From assembly GCF_900091555.1 (NCBI RefSeq), contig NZ_FMCX01000011.1, positions 1-64,000 on the forward strand: a DNA stretch of 64,000 nt, read 5' to 3'. A program made the translations under genes and the position numbers. The notes below the pieces were generated by a model that did not search any database, was not told the DNA's origin, and saw nothing but the letters and a program-made list of their open reading frames with translations. Shown in pieces: positions 12,040-25,331 of this stretch. The DNA comes from Micromonospora mirobrigensis (GTDB lineage: Bacteria; Actinomycetota; Actinomycetes; Mycobacteriales; Micromonosporaceae). Within the stretch, counting starts at the first letter, position 1, and each line of letters begins with the position of its first letter.

Positions 12040-12089
12040 CACATGTTACCGTACTTCTCTTCATCGGTCGACCAGCGGAGCGGGAAGCT

Positions 12090-13583
12090 ATGCGCGCGGC
12101 ACTCTACCTGCGGATATCGAAGGATCGAACTGGCGAGGCAGAGGGAGTGGAGCGCCACGGCGAGGACGGCCGAGCACTGATCGATGTCAAGGGCTGGACC
12201 CTGGTCGAGACCTACACCGACAACGACACGTCCGCCACCACGGGCCGGCGCCGGCCAGGTTTCGAGGCACTGATGGCTGCCGTTGAGCGGCGCGACATCG
12301 ACGTGATCGTCTGCTGGAACACTGACCGCCTCTACCGCAGCCCGGCTGACCGCCTACGGGTAGTCGAGGCATGCCGGCAGCACAGCGTGTCCATCGCCCC
12401 GGTACGCGGTCCCGGCATCGACATGGCTACCCCCAACGGCCGGATGGTCGCCGGCATGCTTGGCGAGATGGCATGGGCGGAGGTCGAGGTCAAGTCGGAC
12501 CGGCAACGGCGTGCCAACCGGCAGGCAGCGGAGAAGGGCAAGCCGTGGATGACGGGCCCACGCCCGTTCGGATACGAGCGGACCGGCGGCACCCTGGTCG
12601 AGCACCCAACCGAGGGCGAGTTGGTCCGCCAAGCGTTCACCCTGATCACCTCGGGTGCCTCGCTCAACTCCGTTACCCGCATGCTCAACGGGGCAGGTGC
12701 CCGAACCACCCTCGGGAACGAGTGGCGGCACAACAACGTGCGGGTGATGCTGCTCAACCCGCTATACGCCGGCCTCCGGGCGTACGCCGAGATGCCCCCA
12801 CTCGGGTCCAAGCAATCCGCTCGATCCCGTCCGCCGGTCGAGAGCCGGAAGCTGGTCCCGGGTACCTGGGAAGCACTGATCACAGAGGACGTGTGGCGAG
12901 CATCGGTTGCCGTGCTGCGCGACCCTGGCCGGCTCACCAACGTCGGCAACTTCTCCGCCGTCCGCCACCTCGGGAGCAACCTGTTCCGCTGCGGCCGATG
13001 CGGGGACCTGACGGACGGCCAGCGCAGCGGTGAGCCAGTGATGGGGGTCAACTACACCAACCCTCGGAAGGATGGCCAGCAGGGGCATCGGATCTACAAG
13101 TGCAAGCGCTGCCACATGAGCCGGCGAGCCGATCCCGTTGATGCCTTCGTGCGGGGGGTGATCGCTGCCCGGCTTGACCGGAGTGACGCTGCGGACCTGG
13201 TCGACGCCGGGAAGGCGGATGGTGCCGACCTGGTCTCGCTGCGACGTGAGGCGGGGGAGTTGCGAGCCCGGCTCGATGTGCTCGCCGACGCTCTCGCCGA
13301 TGGGGACATGACGCGCGACCAGTTCGCCCGCGCCAACCGCAAGGCACTTGACCGGCTAACGGAGGTTGAGGCTCGGCTGACCGAGGGCGGCGGCAGTCAC
13401 GTGCTGGCGGGTCTCGCTGGTCCTGGTGCCGGGCAGCGCTGGCTCACGCTGGACGACATGCCGTTGCAGCGCTCAGCCCTCGATGCCTTGGTCGAGGTGG
13501 TGTTGCACCCGGTCAAGGCGGGTCGCCCCCGTAGGGGCGAAGAGATCGACCCGGCCACCGTCGAGTTCCGATGGAGGGGATAG
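12090..13583 (+). CDS. Large serine recombinase (integrase of the element)
   Basis: A 497-residue site-specific recombinase. The resolvase domain starts at once, with catalytic Ser10 in YLRISKDRTG; Arg-rich RLYRSPADRLR follows. A recombinase domain begins near residue 155 (GKPWMTGPRPFGYERTG). A zinc ribbon has CGRCG and YKCKRCH near residues 305-345, and a coiled-coil region follows. This is the phiC31-type layout, usually acting alone for integration and needing a directionality factor for excision. The gene is 54 bp from attL, as usual. ATG at 12090 with GGAG upstream. Confidence 0.93.
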   Translation: MRAALYLRISKDRTGEAEGVERHGEDGRALIDVKGWTLVETYTDNDTSATTGRRRPGFEALMAAVERRDIDVIVCWNTDRLYRSPADRLRVVEACRQHSVSIAPVRGPGIDMATPNGRMVAGMLGEMAWAEVEVKSDRQRRANRQAAEKGKPWMTGPRPFGYERTGGTLVEHPTEGELVRQAFTLITSGASLNSVTRMLNGAGARTTLGNEWRHNNVRVMLLNPLYAGLRAYAEMPPLGSKQSARSRPPVESRKLVPGTWEALITEDVWRASVAVLRDPGRLTNVGNFSAVRHLGSNLFRCGRCGDLTDGQRSGEPVMGVNYTNPRKDGQQGHRIYKCKRCHMSRRADPVDAFVRGVIAARLDRSDAADLVDAGKADGADLVSLRREAGELRARLDVLADALADGDMTRDQFARANRKALDRLTEVEARLTEGGGSHVLAGLAGPGAGQRWLTLDDMPLQRSALDALVEVVLHPVKAGRPRRGEEIDPATVEFRWRG

Positions 13584-13688
13584 CCGCGCAGTGAGGGTAC
13601 GGCCGTCGCGCTGGCAGGAAGAGGTTGAGCACCGTCGTTGATAGCCTGACCCCCGCATCAACGTCGAACCTTCACCAAGGCAGGCAGA

Positions 13689-14231
13689 GTGACAACGGCT
13701 GAGAAGATCACTATGGGCATCAGTCTTCTCACTGCGCTGGGGGTAGGTGCCTTGCTTCCGGCGCTGGTTGGCCACCTGCTCGGTCGCGGTGAGAAGAGGG
13801 TCAACATCGCCGAAAAGTCAGTGCAGATTGCGGAGGCACTGATGAGCCGGATGGAAACTGAGCTAGCGCGGGCTCAGGAAGCCCTCGCCAAGGCGCAGCA
13901 GGAGAGCGAAGAACTGCGCGCCGACTTGGTGAGGAGTGGTGAGAAGTTGGCCCAGTCCGAGGCCGAGAAGAGCCGTGTGAAGGCGACGGTTGAAGAGCAG
14001 ATGGAGCTAACCCGGGGAGAGTTGGACCGGGCAAGCAACGTCATCGGCAACATCCAGTACAACGTGTACCAAGTTAAAGAGATCAACAGGCTGTCTCACA
14101 CTGCCGGAATCGACAAGTGGGGTGCGGCGGTCGAGGCACTGGTCAAGTCTGGGTTCGACATCATGACGCGCCCTGTTGACGACCCGGATGACGACGGCGG
14201 AGCAGTGCCCGCCCAGCCGAATCGACGGTGA
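13689..14231 (+). CDS. Membrane-anchored coiled-coil protein, unknown
   Basis: A 180-residue protein with one N-terminal membrane helix (about residues 8-30, ISLLTALGVGALLPALVG) and a long charged helix from about 35 to 115, rich in heptad-like Ala/Glu/Leu. The last part ends in an acidic PDDDGG tail. Such small proteins follow integrases in several actinobacterial elements; a holin-like or surface-exclusion role is possible, but nothing in the sequence proves it. GTG at 13689. It is the last + strand gene before a bidirectional terminator. Confidence 0.6.
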   Translation: MTTAEKITMGISLLTALGVGALLPALVGHLLGRGEKRVNIAEKSVQIAEALMSRMETELARAQEALAKAQQESEELRADLVRSGEKLAQSEAEKSRVKATVEEQMELTRGELDRASNVIGNIQYNVYQVKEINRLSHTAGIDKWGAAVEALVKSGFDIMTRPVDDPDDDGGAVPAQPNRR

Positions 14232-14341
14232 CCGGCAGCCCTGGGGGCATGACCCCTTGCGAACGGGAAGCCGGACCGCCAGGTGATAGCAGCGGAGATC
14301 GCGCGCAGCCCCAGGGAACTTTAGAACTCCACCCCTCGCGG

Positions 14342-14369
14342 GGGCCCTAGGCGGGTGCGCCTAGGGCCC
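14342..14369. terminator. Bidirectional terminator hairpin
   Basis: GGGCCCTAGGC at 14342-14352 pairs perfectly with GCCTAGGGCCC at 14359-14369 around a 6-base loop. It lies between convergent genes ending at 14231 and 14382. Confidence 0.8.
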
Positions 14370-14381
14370 ATCAGGACCGGC

Positions 14382-14540
14382 TCAGCCGCTCCGCTCGCGC
14401 ATCTGCCGGGCCCACTCCACGAAGCCGCGAGCCATGGCCAGATACCCGGCCCTCTCGGCATCGTTGAGGTTCGGCCCTTGCGCACGCTTGAACCAACCCT
14501 CCGCATGGTCGCGGAGCACCTTGTAGGCGAGTTCGTTCAC
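14382..14540 (-). CDS. Small hypothetical protein (52 aa)
   Basis: GTG at 14540 overlaps the stop of the previous minus-strand gene (GTGA), and the frame runs 52 codons to TGA. The product begins VNELAYKVLRDHAEGWFKRA and is a predicted single helical domain with many Arg and Glu. The coupling to the gene upstream and actinomycete codon use support it. It is the last gene of the leftward HNH module. No family is recognised. Confidence 0.6.
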   Translation of the reverse strand: MNELAYKVLRDHAEGWFKRAQGPNLNDAERAGYLAMARGFVEWARQMRERSG

Positions 14541-14992
14541 CGGTTCGCCTCGCCTTCCGCCTCGGAGATGGCGGCGTCGATCTCGTCGAGGGTCAGCGCA
14601 TGCGGAGCCGGCGGGGGTGGCGGCTCGATGGCCACGCGCAGGCGCAGCCGGTCAGCCGGTGGGATGATCACGCCGCGCAGCAGCCGATCTACGGTGTCCA
14701 GCGCTACGGCGCTCTTGCCCTTGGTGCGGCCCCGGCTCGCGTAGTCGCCGTTGAGGTAAGCGCTCAGCTCGCCGAAGCAGAACCGGGCGTACGCCCAGTC
14801 AACGCCGGTCATGATGCCGGCTTGCGGGGAGTCCATCAGGGCTAACCACATGTCGCGTGCGACCTGGTGCCACTCGGGATCGGCTGGAGGGATGAGCACT
14901 TGGCCCTCGCCCCGGAGGACGAACACGGGCGCAGCGTTCCGCTCGGCCCGGACCTGGTCGCGCTCACGGCTGTAGTCGTCGGGATTCCTCAC
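14537..14992 (-). CDS. Possible phage small terminase subunit (P27-like)
   Basis: A 151-residue soluble protein. The central stretch PPADPEWHQVARDMWLAL, then GVDWAYARFCFGELSAYL, has the spacing of P27-type small terminases (a proline-led helix with a conserved Trp, then an Asp-led helix pair). A Pro-rich stretch and an acidic helix end the protein. The gene follows an HNH nuclease with a 4-bp overlap, and HNH plus terminase is a known phage packaging arrangement. Family assignment is a guess from pattern. GTG at 14992. Confidence 0.5.
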   Translation of the reverse strand: MRNPDDYSRERDQVRAERNAAPVFVLRGEGQVLIPPADPEWHQVARDMWLALMDSPQAGIMTGVDWAYARFCFGELSAYLNGDYASRGRTKGKSAVALDTVDRLLRGVIIPPADRLRLRVAIEPPPPPAPHALTLDEIDAAISEAEGEANR

Positions 14993-15678
14993 CCGGTCAC
15001 TTCCTCGGCTCGGTGGATCATGATCCAGTAGGCGACGCCTACCGGCGAGAGGCTGTCGCCGATCAGCCGGCGATGCGTGCTGTCGTACCGGGCGTGGCAG
15101 CCACGGCACATCGGCAAGTAGTGGTCAGGGTTGGTGCTGTATGGCCTGCCGGTCTCGCGGCCCTCGGTGTCGGCCCGCTGCCTGAAGTCGGCATGGCTGT
15201 AGGCCCACTGCTCGGCCTGGTTGCCGCAACGGCAGAGGTAGCCCGAGGCGCTGCCTCGCTGGCCCTTCACGCGGTTGTGTGCGCCGTCGTAGGTCAGCCG
15301 GTCCTTGCGCCGGGGGTCAGGGTGGTTGACCCGGTCGGCGCAGTTGGTGGTGATGCCTTGGCTGACGTTGTTGATCTGCAACGCCTTGACGTTGCCGCAG
15401 TCGCAGCGGAACAGGGCCCGAGGCTCGCCGCTGCCCTCGACGCGCTCGACCAGGCTCAGCCCGCCGTAGCGGCTACCCGGCCTGTGCGTCTGCTGGCTCG
15501 GCCTGGTCGTAGCCCGAGGCGTCGGGACGTACGTCCGCCGATGCTTGGCCTTGCTGCGGCAGGTTCGTCCGCAGTAGTCGGGTGCCGGTCCGCGCTTGCC
15601 GGCCGGCTTGGGCGGGATCGGTCCGCCGCAGTGTCGGCACTCGCGCCCGGGGTTGTGTTGCTCGATGGTCTCGCTCAC
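14989..15678 (-). CDS. HNH endonuclease-like protein with zinc knuckles
   Basis: A 229-residue protein. An N-terminal zinc finger has CRHCGG and CGRTCRSKAKHRR; a second cysteine cluster, FRCDCGNVKALQI, resembles the short repeat of phage homing-type nucleases. The C-terminal part with YSTNPDHYLPMCRGCHARYD gives the HNH-type His and zinc cysteines. GTG at 15678 follows GGAGACC; an ATG 16 bases upstream is out of frame. The gene is coupled by GTGA to the next gene. A role in packaging or in element competition is an inference. Confidence 0.75.
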   Translation of the reverse strand: MSETIEQHNPGRECRHCGGPIPPKPAGKRGPAPDYCGRTCRSKAKHRRTYVPTPRATTRPSQQTHRPGSRYGGLSLVERVEGSGEPRALFRCDCGNVKALQINNVSQGITTNCADRVNHPDPRRKDRLTYDGAHNRVKGQRGSASGYLCRCGNQAEQWAYSHADFRQRADTEGRETGRPYSTNPDHYLPMCRGCHARYDSTHRRLIGDSLSPVGVAYWIMIHRAEEVTG

Positions 15679-15704
15679 TCGCGTTGGTCTCCATACAGAG
15701 CTAG

Positions 15705-15743
15705 GGCGCTCTCCGTAGCCCGTTGAGAGCCACGGAGAGCGCC
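15705..15743 (-). terminator. Hairpin between the zinc-finger and HNH genes
   Basis: GGCGCTCTCCGT at 15705-15716 pairs perfectly with ACGGAGAGCGCC at 15732-15743. Confidence 0.65.
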
Positions 15744-15758
15744 TGTCGTTGAACAGCT

Positions 15759-16052
15759 TTAGTCGGGTTGAGGGGTGGCGCCTACGGCCTTGTCGCGCTG
15801 CTTCAGCCGCTTGTAGGCGTGGCGGCAGGCTTCGCGGCAGTAGAGGGATGCTCGGCCGCTCTTGATCGGCACGGGAAGGCCGCACCAGACGCACGGTTCG
15901 GCCGCGTGTGGCTCTTGGCCCACGATCAGCGCGAGGTGGCCGTTGCGTTGCCATCGGGCGTAGTGCGCGTTGCAGAGGCCGCGTGAGCGGCTTGGCTTGG
16001 TGCAGTGCCGTAGCCGGCAGGCATGCGGATGCTTCTGGAGTCTTATCGTCAT
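15759..16052 (-). CDS. Small zinc-finger protein (97 aa)
   Basis: A 97-residue protein with two metal-binding patterns. The first is CRLRHCTKPSRSRGLCNAHY, followed by ARWQRNG, a motif common in phage and element proteins with HNH-like or Zn-ribbon folds. The second is CVWCGLPVPIKSG with YCREACRHAYKR. It probably binds DNA or RNA, and no catalytic residue is evident. It is flanked on both sides by hairpins, so it is likely transcribed as its own unit. Confidence 0.7.
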   Translation of the reverse strand: MTIRLQKHPHACRLRHCTKPSRSRGLCNAHYARWQRNGHLALIVGQEPHAAEPCVWCGLPVPIKSGRASLYCREACRHAYKRLKQRDKAVGATPQPD

Positions 16053-16066
16053 GGGTCAGCGCGATG

Positions 16067-16096
16067 GGGCAGGGCACTCCGCAGAGCACCCTGCCC
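16067..16096 (-). terminator. Hairpin after the 355-aa gene
   Basis: GGGCAGGG at 16067-16074 pairs with CCCTGCCC at 16089-16096. It lies between the minus-strand genes ending at 16108 and starting at 16052. Confidence 0.6.
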
Positions 16097-16107
16097 GGTC
16101 GCCTCAG

Positions 16108-17175
16108 TCAGCCAGCGGCCTTGCTGATCAGGACCAGCTCGACCGTGACGGCCAGCGCGGGCCGCATGTGGCCATCGGTGCCAACCTTGGTCGACTCCCG
16201 GTCGGTCACCTTGGCCGACTCGACCCGGCCGAGCCCGTCCGAGAAGACACCGCTGATGTCCTCGACCGCGCCGTCAACGAAGCGGCCCAGATCGCTGGGG
16301 TCGATGTTGCGGTCGATCCCGTGAACGGTGAAGGACACCTGAACCTTGCGCCGCACCATGTCTCCGTCGCGCGTCAGCGAGAGCACCGCGCCAGCGTGGG
16401 CGTGGGACCGGATGGTGTAGATGTTGGCCCACTGGTCGGTGCGGGGGTTGATGACGTATCGCTTGCTCCTGATGGCGGCAAGGCTGGCGACCTGTCCGGC
16501 CAGGGCGTAGCCCGAGGCGGTCGAGCGCTCACTGATCACGGGCATGGTCGGCTTGAGATCCTTCATGAACAGCGACAGGACGAAGTGGTCCGAACCCATG
16601 GCCAGGCTGTCCCGCAACTCGGCGTGGCCGGCGAAGTGCACGAGCTTGTAGATCCCAGTGGTGCACGCCTCGCGGATCGTGTCGAGCCCTTCGGACGGTA
16701 CGGCGACAAGCAGGCACACCGAGCCGGTCTGCCGGCCCGTCTCGTAATCCATGTCCGCACCCTCGGTCTGGTACAGGTACGCCGCCGGGGCGGTCACCTT
16801 CTCCGGCCGCTGCGGCACAACCTCGATCGGGACGCCGAAGAGACCGAAGTTGAACCGGTTCTCTTCGATGATCCCGCGCAGGTACTCGGCGAGTACCGGG
16901 TTGGTCTGACCCTCGTACAGCTTGAGAGCCCGCTCCGCCGCCGGCACCCGGCCGCGCGCCACGCGGAGCAGGTGCTCCGTGCGCTTGATCTCCGCTTCAG
17001 CGGTGGCGATGTCGAGCCCGGTCACGGAGGCGTCGCCACCGTCGAGCCGGGCGAACAGCTCGGCGGCAGAGTTCTCGGCCTGCTCGTGCTCGGCCTCCCG
17101 CTGAGCGACCAGGGCGTGAGCCTCGGCCAGGGCGTCAGCGGGGGTGGGGGTGGTGTTCTTCTTGGCGGTAGCCAC
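16108..17175 (-). CDS. Hypothetical element protein (355 aa)
   Basis: The N-terminal third is an Ala/Glu-rich coiled coil (about residues 15-90). The rest is a mixed alpha/beta domain with no membrane segment and no recognised motif; it includes AELRDSLAMGSDHFVLSLFM and ends in a strand-rich VTVELVLISKAAG. A structural role (tail tube or capsid-like) would fit its place after the possible tail-terminator gene, but nothing in the sequence shows it. GTG at 17175 follows GAAGAAGG; the frame is open upstream to 17256. Confidence 0.6.
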   Translation of the reverse strand: MATAKKNTTPTPADALAEAHALVAQREAEHEQAENSAAELFARLDGGDASVTGLDIATAEAEIKRTEHLLRVARGRVPAAERALKLYEGQTNPVLAEYLRGIIEENRFNFGLFGVPIEVVPQRPEKVTAPAAYLYQTEGADMDYETGRQTGSVCLLVAVPSEGLDTIREACTTGIYKLVHFAGHAELRDSLAMGSDHFVLSLFMKDLKPTMPVISERSTASGYALAGQVASLAAIRSKRYVINPRTDQWANIYTIRSHAHAGAVLSLTRDGDMVRRKVQVSFTVHGIDRNIDPSDLGRFVDGAVEDISGVFSDGLGRVESAKVTDRESTKVGTDGHMRPALAVTVELVLISKAAG

Positions 17176-17206
17176 GGGTGATGAACCTTCTTCCAGATAC
17201 GACGAT

Positions 17207-17226
17207 GGGCGGCCGGCTGGCCGCCC
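17207..17226 (-). terminator. Perfect hairpin between element genes
   Basis: GGGCGGCC at 17207-17214 pairs with GGCCGCCC at 17219-17226 around a 4-base loop, upstream of the 355-aa gene. Confidence 0.55.
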
Positions 17227-17323
17227 GTGATGCGTTGCAAGCCCTGAGAGCGCCACAGGCGGCCGATCAGGGCGAGGTGGTGGTAGGGGTGGGGTGGAAT
17301 GCGACAGGTGCTCTGAGGGCTTC

Positions 17324-17719
17324 TCAGGCCGTCAGCGAGGCCGAAGCGCACCAGTGATGGAGGGTCAACTTGCGGCCCCGGTTGTGCCGCACCTCTGGTG
17401 CGCGGCGCTCCCGCAGCCTCAGATCGACGCCAGGCAGCGCGGTCATCAACGGAGGCAGCACCATGGCGGACGCGGCGTCAGTGAGGTCGACCGGGGAGAG
17501 GGTCAGTGGCTCGCGCTCGCCGAAGGCCACGACCAGGAGGCGACTGGCGATGACGCCATCTTGCGTCCTGGGTCCCCGCTGTCCGCGTACGCGGATCGCC
17601 GGCCGAGACTCCGGGGGCAGGATCTCTTGCCCAGGCGCGACCGCCTGGACGTCGATGCCGGGATAGCGAGCCCTGAGCACTTCAGCGATCAGCGGCGGCA
17701 GGATGGGATCGACGCTCAC
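17324..17719 (-). CDS. Possible phage tail-terminator-like protein (131 aa)
   Basis: A 131-residue protein that begins VSVDPILPPLIAEVLRARYP and has strands around RPAIRVRGQRG and SRLLVVAFG, then two helices with PLMTALPGVDL. The order (helix led by a short hydrophobic tail, GQ..P-type strand, V..R-type strand, helix pair) resembles tail-completion proteins of siphophages, which are of this size. Similarity is by impression only. GTG at 17719 overlaps the stop of the gene before it. Confidence 0.4.
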   Translation of the reverse strand: MSVDPILPPLIAEVLRARYPGIDVQAVAPGQEILPPESRPAIRVRGQRGPRTQDGVIASRLLVVAFGEREPLTLSPVDLTDAASAMVLPPLMTALPGVDLRLRERRAPEVRHNRGRKLTLHHWCASASLTA

Positions 17720-17970
17720 GGGCGGGCACCCCGCCAGGCGACGCGGTGAACGTTGCTGGCCTGGTCGAGCGCAGCTCGGGCATCGGTGACCAGAGCCGTT
17801 GCCCGGCTCAGGCTCTCGACCGCAGCGGCGATGAGATCAGGGGCGGCCTCCGCCGCCTGCAAGCGGGCGAGATCCGCAGCGGCGGAAAACTTGGTGTCGA
17901 AGGCTAGGGCGTAACGCTGTTCGGCGAGTTGCTGAGCCTTGAGAGCGTCGGCGCGGGAGAGGGTTCCCAC
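17716..17970 (-). CDS. Small helical protein (84 aa)
   Basis: An Ala-rich, highly charged protein predicted to be one long helix or helical hairpin, with LSRADALKAQQLAEQRYAL and AVESLSRATALVTDARAALD. GTG at 17970 has AGGAG about nine bases upstream. Its stop overlaps the start of the next gene by 4 bp. The function is unknown; helical accessory proteins of this size occur in phage head and tail clusters. Confidence 0.55.
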   Translation of the reverse strand: MGTLSRADALKAQQLAEQRYALAFDTKFSAAADLARLQAAEAAPDLIAAAVESLSRATALVTDARAALDQASNVHRVAWRGARP

Positions 17971-18003
17971 TGGTTGATGACTCCTTGATGGGCATACGAA
18001 GAG

Positions 18004-18102
18004 AGCCGGCCACCGGCCGGCTACTACTGGTCTTGGTGTGCTGTGAGAGCCGGCCTCCGGCCGGCATCTACTGGCCTTGCTGGTGATGGCCCCTCCGGGG
18101 CC
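18004..18102. repeat. Three hairpins in a row between two gene groups
   Basis: Hairpin one is AGCCGGCC/GGCCGGCT at 18004-18022, two is GCCGGCC/GGCCGGC at 18049-18065, three is GGCCCC/GGGGCC at 18088-18102. The first two belong to a 45-bp tandem repeat with the tail TACTGG. Together they probably stop leftward transcription from the initiator operon. Confidence 0.65.
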
Positions 18103-18188
18103 CCATCTCCTCGCCGCTGCCAGCAACCTGACGAAGAGGTACGTACCGCAGCGGCGCAGTGCGAAGCAGGGTGCCGGGTGGCGATGGC

Positions 18189-18836
18189 CTACGGCGTCGC
18201 CTGCATCGCCACTGCCCAGGGATCTTCATCCTCGGAGGGGATGAAGTCCTCGAAGTTGTCAGGGAACTGGCTCGGCCTGGCGAACAAGGCAGGCAGCTTC
18301 GCTTCTACCTGTAGAGCAGTAGATGTGTTGGTAGTTGAGTTGGTGATGTGTTGGTAGGGGGAGCGTTCGTTCCGGTTGCAGCCGGAACGTTCGTTCCGGT
18401 TGGCCTGCGCGATCGTTCCGGTTGGCAGGTCCAGCCCGGTTGAACCGGAACGATCGTTCCGGCTGATCTCCCGTCCGGCCGTGCTTGAACCGGAACGAAC
18501 GCTCCGCCTGGGCTCACCGGCACCCTCGCTTGAACCGGCACGTTCGTTCCGGTTGGGGATGGTCAGCAGGTACAGACTCGCAAGCCCTGAGCGGCCCTCG
18601 CGCGTCTTCTTGATCCAGCCGGATTCCTCGGCCAGGTCGAGCCACTTGCGCACCGTCCGCACGTTGCAGCCGAGATCATCGGCAAGCCGCTCCTGCGTCG
18701 GCCGGACGTTGCTGCCGTCAGCATCGCCGTAGGAGGCGAGCGCCATCACCACGCCGATCGCAGGCAGGGGCAGGCCGCTTCCGCGCAGTACTGCCTTCTC
18801 CCATACCACCTTGTGTGGAGCCGGCTTACCGCTCAT
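18189..18836 (-). CDS. Winged-helix replication initiator-like protein with an iteron region in its gene
   Basis: A 215-residue protein. Residues 1-95 form a winged helix of the HTH_36 type seen in phage replication proteins: RPTQERLADDLGCNVRTVRKWLDLAEESGWI then a wing with SLYLLTI holds the DNA-reading helix. A basic, low-complexity middle has repeated NRNERSG units. The acidic C-terminal part ends in a short helix-prone tail (DEDPWAVAMQ), a place where lambda-type initiators bind the helicase. Start ATG 18836. The repeated unit is encoded by an 18-bp palindrome that occurs in more than one frame (see the repeat entry). Role in replication is an inference. Confidence 0.7.
   Translation of the reverse strand: MSGKPAPHKVVWEKAVLRGSGLPLPAIGVVMALASYGDADGSNVRPTQERLADDLGCNVRTVRKWLDLAEESGWIKKTREGRSGLASLYLLTIPNRNERAGSSEGAGEPRRSVRSGSSTAGREISRNDRSGSTGLDLPTGTIAQANRNERSGCNRNERSPYQHITNSTTNTSTALQVEAKLPALFARPSQFPDNFEDFIPSEDEDPWAVAMQATP
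18361..18552. repeat. Six 18-bp palindromes inside the initiator gene (possible origin)
   Basis: The consensus is CCGGAACG-WW-CGTTCCGG. Best copies are 18382-18399, 18445-18462 and 18535-18552; variant copies are near 18361-18375, 18404-18421 and 18490-18507. The right half CGTTCCGG (or a variant) begins at 18368, 18392, 18414, 18455, 18500 and 18545. Copies four to six are spaced exactly 45 bp. The copy at 18414 is read in a different codon frame from its neighbours, so selection acts on the DNA. Confidence 0.8.
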
Positions 18837-19050
18837 CGAGCCGCACCCCCTCGGGGATGGTCAGCACGAACACGCCCGGTCCGAGGCGGCCGATCCAGCC
18901 GGCCCGGATCGCCGTCTGTAGGTGCTCCTCAACCTCGGTCACCGGCACCCCGAGATCACGGGATAGCTGGTCCTCGGTCACTCGCACCAGCGGGCCCGCA
19001 CTTCGCCGCTGCCCCGGTCGGCCGGTCGGCCGCTTCCGTCGCCTACTCAC
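18826..19050 (-). CDS. Small winged-helix-like protein (74 aa)
   Basis: A basic N-terminus (SRRRKRPTGRPGQRR) is followed by a compact helix-turn-helix-like unit with RVTEDQLSRDLGVP and VEEHLQTAIRAGWIGRLGPG, then a strand pair with VFVLTIPEG. This resembles a shortened winged helix. GTG at 19050 overlaps the stop of the preceding gene, and its own stop lies 11 bp inside the next start. It may regulate or assist the initiator encoded after it. Confidence 0.55.
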   Translation of the reverse strand: MSRRRKRPTGRPGQRRSAGPLVRVTEDQLSRDLGVPVTEVEEHLQTAIRAGWIGRLGPGVFVLTIPEGVRLDER

Positions 19051-19295
19051 TGACTCCACCTCCTGCTCGCTGCGCCGCTGATGCTCCGGTACCACAGGGC
19101 AAGCTCGCGGGAACCGGCATCGTCGGTGCCCATCGGGTCCATCCCGCCGGAGAGATCCGGCGACTCGTCGGGCTCCTGGTCGCGCTCGATGCGCTCAGCC
19201 TCGCGCGCGGCTCGCACGCACTCCGCATGCTCGGCGCGCGCGGCTTCCATGGCATCGGCGATGGCAAGGGCTCGGTTGATCATGGCGTCGCTCAC
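19047..19295 (-). CDS. Small hypothetical protein (82 aa)
   Basis: An acidic, helical protein with an Ala/Glu-rich N-terminal half (ALAIADAMEAARAEHAE) and an ELALWYRS segment near the end. GTG at 19295 has AGGAGGT upstream. The start overlaps the previous stop by 4 bp, as does its own stop with the next gene. No family is recognised. Confidence 0.6.
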   Translation of the reverse strand: MSDAMINRALAIADAMEAARAEHAECVRAAREAERIERDQEPDESPDLSGGMDPMGTDDAGSRELALWYRSISGAASRRWSQ

Positions 19296-19468
19296 TGGCT
19301 CACCTCCTGGTCGCCGTCGTGCTCGGCTGCGTGCAGCCGGCGCAGGGCCCAGCCGCCCCGGTAGCGCCGAGCGCTCTCGCCGTCGCCGGTCAGGTCGCAG
19401 ACGCGCTGCCAGACCTCAGGGGTGATGCCGGCTACCGCCATGGCTTGGGGGGTGATCTCGATATCCAC
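19292..19468 (-). CDS. Small hypothetical protein (58 aa)
   Basis: Starts GTG at 19468 with GGAGA upstream and runs 58 codons. It begins VDIEITPQAMAVAGITPEVW and ends EVSQ. It has a short helical core with RRYRGGWALRRLH. The stop overlaps the next start by 4 bp. No family is recognised. Confidence 0.55.
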   Translation of the reverse strand: MDIEITPQAMAVAGITPEVWQRVCDLTGDGESARRYRGGWALRRLHAAEHDGDQEVSQ

Positions 19469-19492
19469 GGGTGATGTCTCCTCGGTGGTTCG

Positions 19493-19597
19493 TTACTTGC
19501 CGGTGAAGAGTCCGCGCAGCTTGGCTCGCTGCTCGGGAGTGAGGGGTGGCGCTTCCGCTGCGATCCGCTCGGCGATCCGCCGCAGCTCCTCGCTCAA
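19493..19597 (-). CDS. Very small conserved-type protein (34 aa)
   Basis: TTG at 19597 overlaps the stop of the excisionase-like gene (TTGA). The product reads LSEELRRIAERIAAEAPPLT, then PEQRAKLRGLFTGK. Peptides of this kind with the pattern EAPPLTPEQR are common in actinobacterial elements and prophages. The function is unknown. Confidence 0.55.
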   Translation of the reverse strand: MSEELRRIAERIAAEAPPLTPEQRAKLRGLFTGK

Positions 19598-19782
19598 CGG
19601 CCCACCGTCCCGGCGTACCGCTCAACCTCACTCAGCGGGTAGAGCACCCTGCCGAGGTACTTGACGTAGCGCATGGGGGAGCGGCGCTCGGTCCGCTGGT
19701 TGATCAGGGTGCGTGCGCTGAGCCCTAAGCGCTCTGCGGTCTCGTTGGTGTCTAGGTACTTCCTGCCGTCGATGACGTGCAC
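19594..19782 (-). CDS. Excisionase-like helix-turn-helix protein (62 aa)
   Basis: A MerR/Xis-type winged helix: YLDTNETAERLGLSARTL holds the helix-turn-helix, and YLGRVLYPLSEVERYAG is the typical wing and final helix of excisionases. GTG at 19782 has GGAGG upstream. With a serine integrase, a separate directionality factor is needed, and such factors are often of this kind, so this is the best candidate in the element. It begins a tightly coupled leftward operon that ends with the initiator gene. Confidence 0.75.
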   Translation of the reverse strand: MHVIDGRKYLDTNETAERLGLSARTLINQRTERRSPMRYVKYLGRVLYPLSEVERYAGTVGR

Positions 19783-19821
19783 TGCTGGCCGCCTCCGTTC
19801 CGCCCGCATCCGGGCATGAAG

Positions 19822-19850
19822 AAGGGGCAGCCGTTGATCGGCTGCCCCTT
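19822..19850. terminator. Strong hairpin upstream of the excisionase-like gene
   Basis: AAGGGGCAGCCG at 19822-19833 pairs perfectly (12 bp) with CGGCTGCCCCTT at 19839-19850 around TTGAT. It lies 40 bp before the excisionase-like start, between that gene and the 75-bp repeat array, and could stop leftward transcription from the array. Confidence 0.7.
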
Positions 19851-19921
19851 GGTTGGGTGGGTGATAGGCCCTGACATACCGGCTCAGGGGCAAGAAGAAG
19901 AGCCAGGCCCGTTGGCCTGGC

Positions 19922-20296
19922 GGATGAAGCCTCTACCTACAGATCCCCGTGATCAGGCGAGTCTTGGCGGCGATCGTGACTGGGCTCACCGGTGAGGGGT
20001 GCAGCCCCTACCTATGAATCCCTCCGCTTAGGGCCGGACGGTGACATGCCGTGACTGAGGTCACCGGCAGCGAGCACACCTTCTACCTACAGGTCCCCGT
20101 AAGCGGTCGGGTCTTACCGGCGATCGTGACTGGGCTCACCGGCAGGAAGTGAGCCCTCCTGCCTATGTATCCGCGCGATCGGGCGGGTCTTGACGACCAT
20201 CGTGACTGGGCTCACGGTCGGGGTCGAAGCCTCTACCTACGTATCCCCGCAGATGAGCACCCCTTATAAGCAGCCGTGATCGGGCTCTCTCCGGTG
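19922..20296. repeat. Five tandem 75-bp units, non-coding
   Basis: CTACCTA (CTGCCTA in unit four) begins at 19933, 20008, 20083, 20159 and 20233, giving spacings of 75, 75, 76 and 74. A second conserved block, GTGACTGGGCTCAC, begins at 19976, 20051, 20126, 20202 and (diverged) 20276 with the same spacings. Blocks such as GCGATC and ATCCCCG are also shared. The junctions can form stems, for example GGCAGGA with TCCTGCC at 20141-20163. No tRNA features (no T-loop GTTCRA) are present. The interval 19783-20323 contains no gene. Confidence 0.85.
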
Positions 20297-20323
20297 GGCT
20301 CAGCGAGTGGAGCCCCTCGCCCG

Positions 20324-20620
20324 TCAGCGAGCCGCAGGCCCGGTCCAAGCGACGAATCGAGCGAACATCTCATCAGGCTGCGGCCCGGGGTTGGGGTTGA
20401 GCCTGAGCAGGTCGCCCGTCGCATCGAACAGCATGCTGGCCATATAGACCGCCAACCCTGCCCGGTCACCCCGGAACTCCATCCCAAGCAAGAGCCGCGC
20501 CGGCTGACACGGCCAGGGGGCGGCGCACACCCGGCACAGCCAGGTTGGCCGCATCGGGTGATGCGGACGGACCGAGCGGGCTGACCGGTTTAGGACGGGG
20601 AGAGCGTTGCGTGGCGGCAT
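20324..20620 (-). CDS. Small conserved protein of actinomycete elements (98 aa)
   Basis: The pattern RPTWLCRVCAAPWPCQPARL, then YMASMLFDATGDLLRLNPNP, matches a family often found in actinobacterial integrative elements and sometimes mislabelled flavin reductase. The two cysteine pairs may bind a metal. ATG at 20620 was chosen because the family starts near this point; the frame is open further upstream. It is divergent from the HTH gene at 20719, leaving a 98-bp shared control region with CTTGTC (20649) and GACAAG (20674) as an inverted pair. Confidence 0.7.
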   Translation of the reverse strand: MPPRNALPVLNRSARSVRPHHPMRPTWLCRVCAAPWPCQPARLLLGMEFRGDRAGLAVYMASMLFDATGDLLRLNPNPGPQPDEMFARFVAWTGPAAR

Positions 20621-20718
20621 GCAATCGAGAGTCACCGCCCGATCACCCCTTGTCAAGGCGCAAGGTGCTCCTAGACAAGATGCGGTTTGACCAGTTGCAC
20701 CATGGCTAACCTGCCGCC

Positions 20719-20922
20719 GTGCCACGTCACCTCTACGGAGCAGGCGAGATCGCCACCCGACTCGGTGTCAGCAGGCAGCGGACGCGGCAGATCATCGACC
20801 GGCCAGACTTCCCGCAGCCGTACGACCGACTCGGCATGGGTGCCGTCTGGTTGAAGTCTGAGGTTGAAGCATGGATCAGGGAGCATCGGCCTCACCTGGC
20901 TGGGGATGAAGATCAGGCGTAG
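20719..20922 (+). CDS. AlpA-like helix-turn-helix regulator (67 aa)
   Basis: A single compact domain: LYGAGEIATRLGVSRQRTRQ then the helix with DFPQPYDRLGMGAVWLKSEV. This is the pattern of AlpA/MerR-type small regulators of integrative elements, which turn on excision or replication genes. GTG at 20719. It is the only + strand regulator in the element and ends at a double hairpin. Confidence 0.75.
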   Translation: MPRHLYGAGEIATRLGVSRQRTRQIIDRPDFPQPYDRLGMGAVWLKSEVEAWIREHRPHLAGDEDQA

Positions 20923-20968
20923 ACGCCTGGCGAGCGCCCCCCGGTCACCGAGGCTCGGTGCCGGGGCG
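20914..20968 (+). terminator. Two adjacent hairpins after the AlpA-like gene
   Basis: CAGGCG/CGCCTG at 20914-20929 spans the end of the gene. A second hairpin at 20935-20968 has CACCGA pairing with TCGGTG around GGC and an outer CCGG/CCGG stem, followed by a T-rich stretch. Confidence 0.7.
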
Positions 20969-21407
20969 TCGTTGTTCCTTGGCTAATGCCCGCCGCTGAC
21001 TTCATCGGCAAGCGATGCGCCATGCACCGTTTCCGCTCATCTTCAGCTGCGAGCTGATCCCGTACCTGCACTTCTCGTACAGGCTTCCGCCGGCATCTTC
21101 GACATCGATCTGGCGGTGCACACCCTCCTGATCGAGCCCTCCGGGCTGCACAAGAAGTTGTCCCGGGGCGTGGGTGGGACGTTCCGGCCTCAGTGATGGC
21201 GGAACTAGGACCAGCCATGCGGATATGCCGTCGAACAAGTGTTCTGGCACGCAGGTCGTACGACGCCCAGACACACAGGACAGAGCCGGTATGGTGTCTC
21301 CAGCGCAAACAACAGACCGAACCTGGTCTCCGAGATGAAGTCGGGCACGGATCGCCTCGACGCGCGGGGGACGGTCCCCCGGCCCAGATCTCGGGGAGGA
21401 ACGGCGA
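20969..21407. other. Interval with no convincing gene
   Basis: No frame with a start and a ribosome site is persuasive. One open stretch on the + strand, about 20986 to 21196, reads like protein (LAVHTLLIEPSGLHKKL) but has no start codon, so it may be a gene remnant. A 15-bp palindrome, GGGGGACGGTCCCCC, is at 21366-21380, just before the small gene at 21408. Confidence 0.4.
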
Positions 21408-21572
21408 GTGAAGAAGCGCGGCAAGGGGCCTTCGGGCCCGATGCGAGACCGGCAGACCAACGCCAACCGGTGGCGGACTGTCGGGGAGTGGGTGGCACTG
21501 ACACTCAAGGTGCTCACCTACGCCGTCGGCCTGGCGGTGACGCTGGCCGGAAACGGATGCGGGCCCAACTGA
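21408..21572 (+). CDS. Small membrane protein (54 aa)
   Basis: GTG at 21408 follows GGGAGGAACG. The product begins VKKRGKGPSGPMRDRQTNAN and has one membrane helix near residues 29-48 (ALTLKVLTYAVGLAVTLAG). It is positively charged before the helix, so the N-terminus should stay in the cytoplasm. It stands alone, convergent with traB. Small membrane proteins accompany TraB in mobile elements, but no family is recognised. Confidence 0.55.
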   Translation: MKKRGKGPSGPMRDRQTNANRWRTVGEWVALTLKVLTYAVGLAVTLAGNGCGPN

Positions 21573-21772
21573 CAACCGTCAGCTAGGCCCACATCAGCCG
21601 GGAAGGCCCTCGCCTCGTGGGTGGCACCAGAGGGGCGGGGGTCTTCCTCGTTCAGTGACGCTAGACGAGTTGTCTACCGTCGCTGTACACCATCTACCGT
21701 TGCAGGTTACCTGGGCTCGTAAATCTGCAACAGCAGGTCTTGGATTTATGGTCCGAGGGGTAGATCTCACCT

Positions 21773-23521
21773 CTAGCTCCCAGCTTGGACCCCGGCCCAC
21801 GTCACGAGATCTTGCCGGGCGTACAGGTCAGCGTTCCCCTGCTTACCGCGCGTCTCGGGAACCTCGCCGACTCGGCGCTGTAGCCGCTTCTTGGCCGCTT
21901 CGTAGGACCAGGGGAGCACTCCGACGTCTACCGCTTGGCGCAGTGTCAGGAAGTCCCCGGCAGGGCTTGATAGGTCGCTGACCTGGGATGTCTCCGGGGA
22001 CCGGGGACATGCAAGCTGCCGAGCCTCAGCGGCGGTGAGGTAGGCGACCTGAGTCTCAGTCGCCTGCCCACCGATGACTATCTGCCACCGGCCGAGGGTG
22101 CGGGATACCCGGGGCATGGCTGCCTCGGGTACCAACATCTTCCAGTTGTTGGCCGTGTATCGGGCCAGGCACCGGATGCCGAAGTTCTCTCGTGCCTCGG
22201 GTCCGCCGATGGCGCGAGCGGTGAGCATCTGCGCGATGGCCAGCACGTTGACCTTGGCGCTTCGTCCCATGAAGAGCAGGTCGGCCAGGGCCGAGACGGC
22301 GGGGGAGCGCTTCGGGTCTCCCTTGCCGCGTGCCTCGGCCCAGAAGTTGACGAGCTGCCCGATGGTGGCGTTCAACTCCTCGCAGATGACCAGCACGCGG
22401 GGACCGGGGTCCCAGTCTTCGGCCTCGTGCATGGCCAGGGTGTTCCGCTCGTCGGCGAGCGTGGCCAGGCGCACCAGGGCGTCATGCATCTGCGCCGGCT
22501 TGGTGCAGTAGTCGACGCCGGCCAGGCCGAGCGCCCACCGGTGCGAGCCCTTGCGGTCGAGGATCACCACCCGGCCACCCCGGTTGAGCACCTGCACCGC
22601 GACCAGCTCGGCAAGCACGCTCTTGCCCGCACCCGATCCGGCGCTCACCGCGATGTGCGGGGAGTCGTCGCGCAGAGACAGGATCACGGGCCGGTCGCCT
22701 GCACCCTGCCCGATGTAGAACTCCCACTCGGCCAGACGGGGCAGATGCTCGGCGACCTGGTCGACGCCGACCCGAGCCGGCGGACGCTTACGCACCGTCC
22801 ACGTAGCGGTTACCCGCGGACCTACCTGGTGCCAGGTCTCGACCAGGTCAGAGACCGGGATCTTGCTCCCGATGATGGAGGAGACAAGCTGCCGTTGCTC
22901 CTTAGTCAGGTACGGGGTGTCCGCCTCCAGCTCGATACGCGGGCCCTGGTCGCCGTCGACCGGCCGGCGGAACACAGCCAGCCGGGACGTGACCGGCTCC
23001 GCCTTACGCTGCACCGCCCACGCCGCCCGCTGCGCACGCTCAGGAAGCCACCGGATCACCGGCTCGACGTGCTCGCCGTACCAGGCCCTTACCGCCTTCT
23101 CGGCAGGGCTGAGCGGCTTGGCCAGTCGGGGCGTGAGGTTGCCCAACGAGGGATCAACGTGCAGGCGCACGCCGGTCTGCAAGCCCATCGCCGGGGCGAG
23201 AGCGGTCAGGGTCGGCGCGACGTACTCGCGGTTGAATCGGCGGCGTACCAGCCGTTGCCGGCCGCGCCAGGCGGCAGCCAGAGCCGCGCCGCTGGCCGCA
23301 GTCAGCGAGGCGTCAGGGAAGGCCACGGCCAGGCCGGCGGCAGCCGGCACACCAAGGCGGTATGCCTGACGCTGCCAGCCGGCCAACCGACCCGGTCCCC
23401 GGTGGCGGTACGGGTAACCCTGCTTGCCGCTGAGCGGCCTACCGGAGACGTACCGGTAGGCCACCCGCGACACGGTGTGCTTGCGCCGCAGCTTGCGGAG
23501 AGCCCGCTCAAGCTCGGTCAT
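21773..23521 (-). CDS. traB: FtsK/TraB-type DNA translocase
   Basis: A 582-residue pump. Residues 294-301 hold the Walker A motif GSGAGKS and residues 375-383 the Walker B stretch RVLVICEEL. A short membrane-spanning stretch lies near 50-85. The C-terminal tail (LTLRQAVDVGVLPWSYEAAK) is a winged-helix-like unit; in Streptomyces TraB the C-terminal winged helix recognises repeats in the transfer locus. TraB proteins move double-stranded plasmid DNA between mycelial cells. It follows a DUF2637-like gene by 3 bp. The name is by family and context, not proven function. Confidence 0.85.
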   Translation of the reverse strand: MTELERALRKLRRKHTVSRVAYRYVSGRPLSGKQGYPYRHRGPGRLAGWQRQAYRLGVPAAAGLAVAFPDASLTAASGAALAAAWRGRQRLVRRRFNREYVAPTLTALAPAMGLQTGVRLHVDPSLGNLTPRLAKPLSPAEKAVRAWYGEHVEPVIRWLPERAQRAAWAVQRKAEPVTSRLAVFRRPVDGDQGPRIELEADTPYLTKEQRQLVSSIIGSKIPVSDLVETWHQVGPRVTATWTVRKRPPARVGVDQVAEHLPRLAEWEFYIGQGAGDRPVILSLRDDSPHIAVSAGSGAGKSVLAELVAVQVLNRGGRVVILDRKGSHRWALGLAGVDYCTKPAQMHDALVRLATLADERNTLAMHEAEDWDPGPRVLVICEELNATIGQLVNFWAEARGKGDPKRSPAVSALADLLFMGRSAKVNVLAIAQMLTARAIGGPEARENFGIRCLARYTANNWKMLVPEAAMPRVSRTLGRWQIVIGGQATETQVAYLTAAEARQLACPRSPETSQVSDLSSPAGDFLTLRQAVDVGVLPWSYEAAKKRLQRRVGEVPETRGKQGNADLYARQDLVTWAGVQAGS

Positions 23522-23524
23522 CGG

Positions 23525-24334
23525 TCAGCCCTCCTCGTGCGACAGGTGGGCAAGGGCAGCGGCCATGCCGAGCACGGCGACCGGCAGGCAGGCAACCAGG
23601 GTGGTGATCCACCACGGGGCCGAGGTGATGCCGGCGGCGACCAGGAGGTGATAGGCCACCTGGCCGAGAGCACCCACCAGCAGAGACCCGATGGCGGACC
23701 ACTTGGCGAACCGGCGAGCCCGGGGCGGAACCAGGCCCGACAGCCAGGCTCGCAGGGCGTAGGCGGCGTAGACCTCCACGCCGATCGGCAGCGTGATGGC
23801 CGTGTTGATGCTGAACTCGTCAGCGATCCCGGGCAGGGGGTGGACCACCCCGAACCCGGTCAGTCCGCCGAGCCCGACCCACCCGGACCAGATGGCCACG
23901 AACGCGGGCAGCGCGATCAGGATCACCGGCCAGGAAGCCAGCCGGCGAGACTCGCTCGCCACGGTGACGGGCTCAACCTCGTCCGCCGGGTGTCCAACCT
24001 GGTCGACCTCGGCGAACGGCTCAGCGACCTTCTCGGCGGGGAGGATCAGCGGAACCGGGGCAGTGTCGACCGGCAGGGCCGGCGGGACCGGGGCAGGCTC
24101 GGCGTACTCCCACGGGTCCGAGGTGGGCCCGGCCTCGGTCTCGTCCGGCAGGGTGATGGGCTCGGCGACCAGGGCCAGGCGGACAGCCTGAGCCTTGGGC
24201 GCACCCACCTTGAACTCGCGCATGATCTGGTTGCGTGAGGGGATCTCGCCGAGTCTGTCGGCCAGGTCCCGAACGGCGGGAAGCAGGTCGGCGACGGGGC
24301 GCGGGTAGGCGCTGGTGACGGTGGCGGTGCTCAT
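23525..24334 (-). CDS. DUF2637-like membrane protein
   Basis: A 269-residue protein. The first half is soluble and acidic; the second half has four membrane helices starting near residue 135, with LPIGVEVYAAYALRAWL and AKWSAIGSLLVGALGQVAYH, a pattern found in DUF2637/spread-type proteins next to TraB genes. Residues 30-50 look like a helix-turn-helix. The ATG at 24334 overlaps the stop of the next gene upstream. It is probably part of the transfer apparatus or spreading system. Confidence 0.75.
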   Translation of the reverse strand: MSTATVTSAYPRPVADLLPAVRDLADRLGEIPSRNQIMREFKVGAPKAQAVRLALVAEPITLPDETEAGPTSDPWEYAEPAPVPPALPVDTAPVPLILPAEKVAEPFAEVDQVGHPADEVEPVTVASESRRLASWPVILIALPAFVAIWSGWVGLGGLTGFGVVHPLPGIADEFSINTAITLPIGVEVYAAYALRAWLSGLVPPRARRFAKWSAIGSLLVGALGQVAYHLLVAAGITSAPWWITTLVACLPVAVLGMAAALAHLSHEEG

Positions 24335-24651
24335 CGGGCGATCCCTCCGACCCACTGCGCGATCTCGTCGGTGCTGGCCTGCGGCAGCGCGGTCCGGATC
24401 AGCCGGGCGGCAGCCTCGCGGGTGAGAGCGGGGTCGACGACGATTACGCGACGGTTGGGAACGACCGTGCATGGCGCTCCGGTGCGCGCCTGGATGATCT
24501 GCACTGCTTCTCCTGCGGCGAGGGTGGAGGGGGCATCGGCGGGAGCGGTGTGCCGCTCAACCAGCCGGCGAGCGATGACGAACGGGGCGAGCATCGAGAC
24601 CGGGCCGCCGATGAGGATCAGGCCGAGCGCGTAGGCAGCGGTGCCGTTCAT
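24331..24651 (-). CDS. Small protein with one membrane helix (106 aa)
   Basis: The N-terminal helix (AYALGLILIGGPVSMLAPFVI) spans the membrane; the C-terminal soluble part has RRVIVVDPALTREAAARLI and a terminal helix (DEIAQWVGGI). The gene sits between an initiator-like gene and the DUF2637-like gene and overlaps both by 4 bp. It is likely an accessory transfer protein. No family is recognised. Confidence 0.6.
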   Translation of the reverse strand: MNGTAAYALGLILIGGPVSMLAPFVIARRLVERHTAPADAPSTLAAGEAVQIIQARTGAPCTVVPNRRVIVVDPALTREAAARLIRTALPQASTDEIAQWVGGIAR

Positions 24652-25232
24652 CGAGCACCCGCCAGAGCCTCAGAGCGGCAGGGGATGCACCGGCCGGCAG
24701 GCTGGCCAACGTGTCCCGGCTTGGTGCAGCGGTCGCCACCGGCGGTCATCGGGAGGGCAGCGCCCTTGCGCTCGGGGTACGGGTAGCCGTTGGTGCCAGG
24801 GTTGTTGCTCTTGTTCTTGGGAAGGAATCGACGCCAGTCGCGGGCGCTTGCGCCCGTCTTCAACTTCCCTTGGTCTTCACCACTTCGGGTGTCACCCTGG
24901 CTGTCACCCCCGGCGGGCTGATTCGTCACCCCCACCGGCTGATTCGTCACCCCCTGGGGAGCGTTCGTCACCCCCTGGCCAGTCACCAGCCGGTAGACCC
25001 GGGTGGCGATACCGGTGACCTTGGCGACCACCAGGCGGCCGAGCTGCACCAGCTTGGCGAGGGCCCGCTGTACGGTCCGCTCAGAGCAGCCGGCGTACTC
25101 GGCGAGGGTGGCGACGGAGGGCCAAGCGTTGCCCTCGTTGTTGGCGTGGGCAGCGATGGCGATAGCTACGGCGCGCTCGTTCTTCCCGAGGTCACGGGTG
25201 GCGAGCAGGGCAGCCTTCACAGCTACACTCAT
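24648..25232 (-). CDS. Second winged-helix initiator-like protein (194 aa)
   Basis: Residues 15-75 form a winged helix of the HTH_36 type: ERAVAIAIAAHANNEGNAWP, then SVATLAEYAGCSERTVQRAL and VYRLVTG. A repeat with GVTNAPQ, GVTNQPV, GVTNQPA follows. The C-terminal part has CTKPGHVGQPAGRCIPC, a possible metal-binding pair. ATG at 25232 with GGAGG upstream. It begins the operon that ends with traB. It may start replication of the element or control transfer genes. Confidence 0.7.
   Translation of the reverse strand: MSVAVKAALLATRDLGKNERAVAIAIAAHANNEGNAWPSVATLAEYAGCSERTVQRALAKLVQLGRLVVAKVTGIATRVYRLVTGQGVTNAPQGVTNQPVGVTNQPAGGDSQGDTRSGEDQGKLKTGASARDWRRFLPKNKSNNPGTNGYPYPERKGAALPMTAGGDRCTKPGHVGQPAGRCIPCRSEALAGAR
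24891..24987. repeat. GTCACC repeats inside the second initiator-like gene
   Basis: GTCACC begins at 24891, 24903, 24925, 24946, 24967 and 24982. The middle three are part of 21-bp direct repeats with TTCGTCACCCCC. The first two are read in a different frame from the middle three. Confidence 0.65.
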
Positions 25233-25259
25233 GGGCGGCGGACCTCCACTGTCCGTCGA

Positions 25260-25297
25260 GGGCCCGGAGTCCAGGTGTTACAGCACCTGCCGGGCCC
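25260..25297. terminator. Hairpin at the right end of the element
   Basis: GGGCCCGG at 25260-25267 pairs with CCGGGCCC at 25290-25297; CAGGTG pairs with CACCTG inside. It lies 35 bp from attR and is followed by GCTTGCTTTAT on the + strand. It may shield chromosomal genes from the element's transcription. Confidence 0.65.
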
Positions 25298-25331
25298 GCT
25301 TGCTTTATCCGGTAGTCGACGCGCTCATGCG

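Follow-up and report, generated by a model that had tools for sequence, protein, structure and literature searches.

The closest described arrangement is that of phage lambda, whose O gene contains, as described in PMC4488673, four iterons of 19 bp and an A-T-rich region of 49 bp with strong strand asymmetry. In the account cited in PMC6022878, the O protein binds DNA through its N-terminal part and P through its C-terminal part, with a flexible linker, and occupies each iteron as a dimer. Integrated elements of the AICE kind are served by other replication proteins, the types described in PMC3218068 being RepSA, RepAM and Prim-Pol. In the lambda sequence (NC_001416), the four annotated iterons are 20, 24 and 23 bp apart and stand in codon phases 0, 2, 2 and 1, so that all three frames are used, and the least stable 60 bp of the gene begin 4 nt after the array. 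Hybrids between lambda and phi80 reportedly mapped the specificity of O.

We propose that 18189-18836, in the 64-kb window (the whole stretch of DNA that was analysed), very likely encodes a lambda-O-like initiator with an origin inside its own gene. Since the lambda iterons fall in several frames and the tract lies at the end of the array, the layout of the two genes is the same, and the likeness to lambda O that had been suggested from the sequence alone proved apt. As in lambda (PMC4488673, PMC6022878, PMC7466680, as far as these sources describe it), the initiator gene would hold its own origin, in which clustered palindromic iterons and then a weak asymmetric tract lie between an N-terminal DNA-binding part and the C-terminus. 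Unlike lambda O, the gene has another iteron sequence, six sites and a wider spacing (22-45 bp); only about 50 residues are encoded beyond the tract, with no helicase-loader-binding domain of lambda-O size; no P-like gene was recognised; and the host is an integrated actinobacterial element. The candidate origin is of a kind known from lambda, here with a shorter C-terminus, a different host element, no recognised loader gene and apparent signs of natural cassette exchange. The features are as follows.

12037-25340: integrated element of 13.3 kb inside comEC, with the 9-bp repeat AGCGCGTAC at 12028-12036 and 25332-25340
18189-18836, minus strand: initiator gene (215 aa), for a protein with a winged helix at the N-terminus, a disordered linker and a short C-terminal tail
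18192-18284, minus strand: C-terminal tail, FARPSQF...EDPWAVAMQATP, where homology to the related locus L025 resumes; the tail motif occurs in loci L021, L022 and L025
18297-18357: putative unwinding tract, the weakest 60-bp stretch in the 64-kb window, with 46% GC and a coding strand poor in G
18356-18377: iteron closest to the tract, 16/20; peptide NRNERSP
18380-18401: iteron, 19/20, perfect 18-mer core; peptide NRNERSG
18402-18423: iteron in a shifted reading frame, 15/20; peptide TGTIAQ
18443-18464: iteron, 19/20, perfect 18-mer core; peptide SRNDRSG
18488-18509: iteron, 17/20; peptide RRSVRSG
18533-18554: iteron, 19/20; peptide NRNERAG
18552-18815, minus strand: stretch encoding the winged helix, about residues 8-95 (AlphaFold2)
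18826-19095, minus strand: gene of a small protein, upstream of the initiator gene and overlapping its start; possibly a regulator
24648-25232, minus strand: second HTH_36 gene of the element (E 4.9e-17), with direct GGGGGTGACGAA repeats around 24888-24977

The element interrupts comEC, the gene of the competence DNA-uptake channel: an upstream ORF matches Competence and Lactamase_B in Pfam, and the remainder of comEC beyond 25332 was recognised by eye. In other bacteria, phages sit in competence genes and their excision restores the gene. Like AICEs, this integrated actinobacterial element has a site-specific integrase, an excisionase-like protein and a transfer ATPase, and it further carries a Terminase_7-like protein and the second HTH_36 gene. 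The integrase is a serine recombinase with Resolvase and Recombinase domains and a phrog_95 integrase match; the excisionase-like protein (19594-19893) matches HTH_17 and phrog_66; and the product of 21773-23521 is a DUF87/HerA transfer-type ATPase (DUF87 match above the cut-off) whose distant relatives occur in 89 plasmid records (59 from Streptomyces), several annotated pRL2-11 and one 'Tra protein'. Unlike in AICEs, no RepSA, RepAM or Prim-Pol was recognised, and the ATPase matches DUF87, not FtsK_SpoIIIE: the FtsK/SpoIIIE Tra domain PF01580 had no match in 21773-23521 at E up to 0.1, and neither DUF3631 (RepAM) nor Prim-Pol matched any of the 18 element ORFs in libraries that do not hold the RepSA profile of PMC3218068. 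A Pfam scan of the same 18 ORFs recognised no helicase loader or helicase, and 18189-18836 has neither a C-terminal P- or loader-binding domain nor, in that scan, an adjoining loader gene. Because the loader-binding domain and loader of the O-P system and the PF01580 Tra of canonical AICEs were looked for and not found, we apply neither name to the gene or the element.

The element combines phage-like genes, in the region of 14537-15109, with its transfer-type ATPase. The product of 14537-15109 resembles a Terminase_7 small subunit (E 2.8e-16) and also has a PHROG 'minor tail protein' match, and an HNH-like ORF adjoins it. The 382-aa protein of 16108-17256 matches no family; in its model (mean pLDDT 83.8) a long helical N-terminus precedes a middle domain (about 119-236) that resembles phage tail terminators, with matches to T5 p142 (Z 9.8 over 114 residues) and lambda gpU (Z 8.8), the best row being Listeria Antigen B (Z 10.5). 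The same gene order occurs in elements of genomes G072, G084, G329, G397 and G455 and of Plantactinospora endophytica, and among named organisms the nearest to host this family are Micromonospora humi, M. arborensis, M. veneta and P. endophytica. A search of the open-licence literature turned up no paper about this element or about iterons within actinobacterial genes, and no relevant one on a Micromonospora integrative element in comEC.

The product of 18189-18836 has an N-terminal HTH/winged-helix DNA-binding domain of the HTH_36/phage-initiator kind. A profile search matched it to Pfam HTH_36 (E 4.3e-11), and its PHROG matches are phrog_270, 'replication initiation protein' (E 2.4e-11), and the O-like phrog_391 (E 1.3e-8). 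The AlphaFold2 model, made from an alignment of nine divergent rows and with a whole-protein mean pLDDT of 63.4, reaches a mean pLDDT of 70-94 per 10-residue block over residues 11-100 and places helices and strands at residues 9-91; linker residues 100-183 fall below 50 save for a few and are predicted to be disordered. The iteron array encodes residues 95-161, which belong to the end of the winged helix and to the disordered linker. In BFVD, the structurally similar entries include 'Putative replication protein O' and 'Replication initiator protein', with many others unnamed or HTH. PDB neighbours of the winged helix range over generic winged helices (best Z 9.2) and single out no specific initiator family, several of the best being repressors (Zur, LexA); a PDB sequence search gave one weak match (E 0.043), and Rep_3 (PF01051), the domain of iteron-plasmid initiators, had no match at E up to 0.1. 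The small protein of 18826-19095 has no Pfam match above the cut-off and weak HTH matches, and in L025 and L021 its homologues adjoin the initiator slot. A little downstream of the initiator gene, 18001-18082 holds two 38-nt direct repeats (87% alike) and a CCGGCC-rich inverted sequence.

Among 151 relatives searched for the same winged helix, six match at E 1e-5, the genome itself included, and the same-genus G084 matches the initiator in the C-terminal tail only. There was no match in the phage collection, one among plasmids (Rhodococcus, 34.7% identity) and one contig among viral contigs. As these searches gave no close homologue of the winged helix, its iteron and specificity are not traceable within one lineage.

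Inside the initiator gene, at 18356-18554, lie six sites of the 22-bp palindrome AACCGGAACG-NN-CGTTCCGGTT, which match AACCGGAACGNNCGTTCCGGTT at 15-19 of 20 scored positions and have centre-to-centre spacings of 24, 22, 41, 45 and 45 bp. This confirms what the sequence-only reading had claimed, six palindromic copies within a winged-helix gene, three consecutive ones being 45 bp apart; the arms that it gave, CCGGAACG-WW-CGTTCCGG, are exact in only two of the six. It had also read every copy as NRNERSG except one in another frame, TGTIAQ; the shifted copy stands, but only three of the six read NRNER. Its argument from two reading frames is thin within this gene, since five of the six copies share one codon phase and the shifted one, 18402-18423, is the weakest and has one poor arm; the argument is carried mainly by the relatives. 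The sites are nearly private to the gene. Elsewhere in the window the best AACCGGAACGNNCGTTCCGGTT score is 15/20, at one place (60259), and a single-strand scan of the organism's own 6.17-Mb genome, allowing up to 3 mismatches, put in the gene both exact 18-mers, the one site with a single mismatch, one of four with two mismatches and two of 24 with three. The exact palindrome also occurs in six viral contigs, one isolated site each, with no other site reaching 12/16 within 400 bp; we rejected these as related arrays and read them as chance.

Synonymous-codon shuffles, which preserve both the protein and its codon use, gave the null expectation for such repeats. The both-strand 10-mer repeat count of the initiator gene is 9 (shuffle maximum 6; 0/100 reach 9), and near-identical 12-mer pairs in different frames number 30 (null mean 1.0, maximum 15; 0/300). 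The palindromy of the array is reached by 39 of 1000 shuffles, a modest excess over the protein constraint, and a generic palindrome count of the gene is not significant (32/300). In other words, the gene holds clustered iterons beyond the pattern imposed by its protein, and the shuffle comparisons have shown these putative sites to be under selection as DNA and not merely as protein. Being selected as DNA, the copies can fall in different reading frames.

A low-stability, strand-asymmetric tract directly adjoins the iterons. Nearest-neighbour energies were calculated for 60-bp stretches over the entire 64-kb window, and the weakest stretch lies on the gene-sense 3' side of the array, starting at nt 480 of the gene where the last iteron ends at nt 481. 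At 46% GC it is poorer than the element (68%) and the flanks (74%), and within its 58-nt core the coding strand counts 21 A, 21 C, 10 T and 6 G. The weakest 60 bp start within 30 nt of the 3' end of the array in 11 of 13 repeat-bearing genes, a limit that was set after seeing the data and a set that includes relatives, which are not independent; the exceptions are L058 and the second HTH_36 gene of this element. A DnaA-driven origin is without support: matches to the DnaA box TTGTCCACA with at most one mismatch number four in the window, as many as in 79 of 100 shuffles, and none is in the element.

Three related loci have the same gene order, L025 (G084), L021 (G397) and L022 (G329). Their initiator slots hold different winged helices and different repeats, with a related C-terminal tail, and they share a layout in which the winged helix is followed by repeats, a weak tract and the C-terminal tail. 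In L025 a 22-bp repeat, ACATGTCGANCCNNTCGACATG, occurs four times and in all three frames (EHFDPVDM, QHVDPIDI, TCRPDRHD, DMSTPSTP); L021 has five copies of GAGAGGGACACAGAGTCCCACTC in two frames, and L022 four copies of GAGTACCGAAATCGATACTC in one. Homologues that kept NRNERSG over unrelated DNA would have pointed to the protein; it is the other way, these three keeping neither the peptide nor the DNA but keeping the layout. No shuffle of 100 reaches the both-strand repeat count in any of the four slot genes (this one, L021, L022 and L025), and none reaches the out-of-frame count in three of them (30, 44 and 62), that of L022 being 0; with 9-mers, two of 100 shuffles do so for L025. The slot of L020, L026 and L029 is filled by a shorter protein that is of a different type and lacks this linker; a slot gene was not recognised in L043, L044 or L045.

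The second HTH_36 gene gives a less consistent picture. The repeats of 24648-25232 do not rise above synonymous shuffles, and none of the five second genes of type A (this element, L020, L025, L043 and L044) reaches 0/100 on either repeat test, the best being L020 with 2/100 out of frame. Second genes of type B (L021, L022, L026 and L029) all pass the out-of-frame test and all miss the both-strand one (0/4); their CGGAAGCAGGCTTCCG-type palindromes are read in two frames (PEAGFR, RKQASY). In L056, from another Micromonospora, a related protein has a different repeat, CGACCGGGGCGTCGTC, read by eye in three frames, and its out-of-frame count of 28 is reached by 0/100 shuffles. With type A failing both tests and type B passing only one, we rejected the second HTH_36 gene as an equal replicator, and 24648-25232 as a second replicator at all is uncertain.

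As a positive control, lambda O has an out-of-frame count of 14, above the null maximum of 10 (0/200). Ten phage genes were picked from 40 of 109 matching records, and eight of them reach 0/100 on the out-of-frame count, including all six annotated 'replication initiation protein'; Adora and pMLP1 fail. The HTH_36 initiators of Andrew, Abidatro, Austintatious, ClubL, OneUp and vB_Pae_U2 (actinophages and Pseudomonas phages) are like the present one in having an HTH protein, a linker and out-of-frame intragenic repeats, and differ from it in their unrelated repeat sequences and longer C-terminal domains; vB_Pae_U2, unlike this element, has an annotated DnaC-like loader and DnaB-like helicase as its next genes. 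Rep of Lactococcus phage Tuc2009 has an origin annotated inside the initiator gene, as we propose here, but is DnaD-like, and its out-of-frame signal is marginal (6/200). None of 55 control ORFs (32 neighbouring, 23 from the window outside the element) reaches 0/100 on either statistic.

Genomic HTH_36 genes are a mixture. From 33 drawn, two were set aside for N or unreadable letters, and 10 of the 31 tested, L052 among the positives, reach 0/100 on one of two statistics; at least three of these 10 are doubtful, L068 being GntR-regulator-like, L070 having G runs and L077 being marginal (24 against a null maximum of 22). The arrays of L058 and L004 keep to one frame. The L058 gene closes with four exact 33-bp tandem copies (nt 452-565) carrying the palindrome GGGAACTGAGTTCCC, with no C-terminal part beyond. 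In L003 (1444-1839) and L007 (1239-1625), related winged-helix ORFs end at a stop past which an overlapping frame continues, by eye, with GGGACA/GGAGAC-like repeats.

Over 11 genes, 22 of the 42 adjacent iteron spacings are 21-25 bp and 25 are multiples of three. Spacings of 22-24 bp are often not multiples of three, so that copies would move between frames; given the 25 that are, spacing only partially accounts for the frame differences. A helical-phasing test that left out two tandem families gave R 0.40 at 10.5 bp (p 0.004 against a uniform 17-57 bp). We do not claim exact helical phasing, since 10 to 12 bp fit about equally and 25 of 42 spacings are multiples of three.

Where the relatives can be aligned, homology breaks off near the tract. 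This element and L025 share 83.9% DNA identity over 17399-18284 and are homologous again at 19130-19300, with no alignment at E 1e-5 between 18285 and 19129; 13 bp separate the border and the tract. Between L021 and L022 the alignment (73.7%) begins at gene nt 514 and 505, respectively 12 and 4 nt past their weakest 60 bp, and continues from there. Between L021 and L025 an alignment (70%) takes in the upstream gene and roughly the first 150 nt of the initiator gene and goes no further, which indicates that they have the ancestry of the winged helix in common, but not that of the repeats. As a single gene holds both sites and protein, the winged helix could be exchanged together with its iterons and tract, giving a new specificity in one step, and the border pattern fits their exchange as a unit. 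However, the shared borders rest on two pairs, and rapid divergence could also explain them. We advance as possible rather than probable the broader proposal that winged helix, iterons and unwinding tract form a mobile specificity cassette with its border at the tract, the C-terminal tail staying in place; that the family switches replication specificity by intragenic recombination; that some members (L021 and L022, with type-B second genes) have two intragenic origins with unrelated palindromes; and that repeats in different frames with an adjoining weak tract are a general signature by which origins within initiator genes could be found.

We hypothesize that initiator dimers bind the palindromes through the winged helix, the four tract-side sites being 22-41 bp apart, and that the resulting assembly would open the tract at 18297-18357. 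The C-terminal tail, or a partner or host factor, may then recruit the replicative helicase of the host, which would allow the excised, circular element to replicate from the intragenic origin. The placing of an origin inside the initiator gene, at first suggested by this one sequence, gains support from the comparison with relatives and lambda O.

The palindromes could instead be operators, by which the winged-helix protein represses its own or neighbouring genes through intragenic binding. HTH_36 does occur in regulators, and Zur and LexA are among the best structural neighbours, though the winged-helix fold is common; autoregulation through iterons is also seen with real initiators. We nevertheless consider operators unlikely, as the sites lie 280-480 nt into the gene rather than at a promoter, and are nearly confined to it genome-wide, while the weakest DNA of the window adjoins them and the same layout recurs in lambda O and in phage genes annotated 'replication initiation protein'. 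It is highly improbable that the repeats serve the protein, as NRNERSG-type units spread by tandem duplication, with the DNA pattern a by-product: the single frame of five copies, the three centres exactly 45 bp apart and a palindromy modestly above shuffles would suit such units, but repeats in different frames (0/300 here, three frames in L025 and lambda O), the predicted disorder of the linker and the loss of the peptide in relatives of the same layout do not.

An array of this kind might also be a partition, transfer or packaging site for another protein of the element, and the HerA/DUF87 ATPase or the Terminase_7-like subunit could use clustered sites. Yet the repeats differ among relatives whose transfer ATPases are 77-93% identical, and winged helix and repeats change together, which makes this very unlikely. 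Finally, the array could be the non-functional remnant of a former intragenic origin in an element that now replicates from elsewhere, for example from 24648-25232. Leaving aside L045 and the fragments L046 and L047, each of the nine tra-bearing loci examined has a second HTH_36 gene, whereas the first slot is occupied by a different protein or was not recognised in L020, L026, L029, L043 and L044, and copies 1 and 3 of the array are degenerate. We give a remnant scarcely any credence all the same, because the gene is open, the tract and four good sites are kept, and the repeats of the type-A second gene here are not above shuffles.

If 18189-18836 does carry the origin of its element, a mobile-element origin in Micromonospora would be placed to within about 260 bp, and with it a minimal candidate replicon for the genus. 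The lambda arrangement would be seen to occur with many unrelated palindromes, and cross-frame repeats with the weakest DNA adjoining them would offer a cheap origin test, one that passes lambda O and six of six annotated phage initiators and none of 55 control ORFs. Natural swaps within the family could then reveal how changes in a winged helix and in its DNA site go hand in hand.
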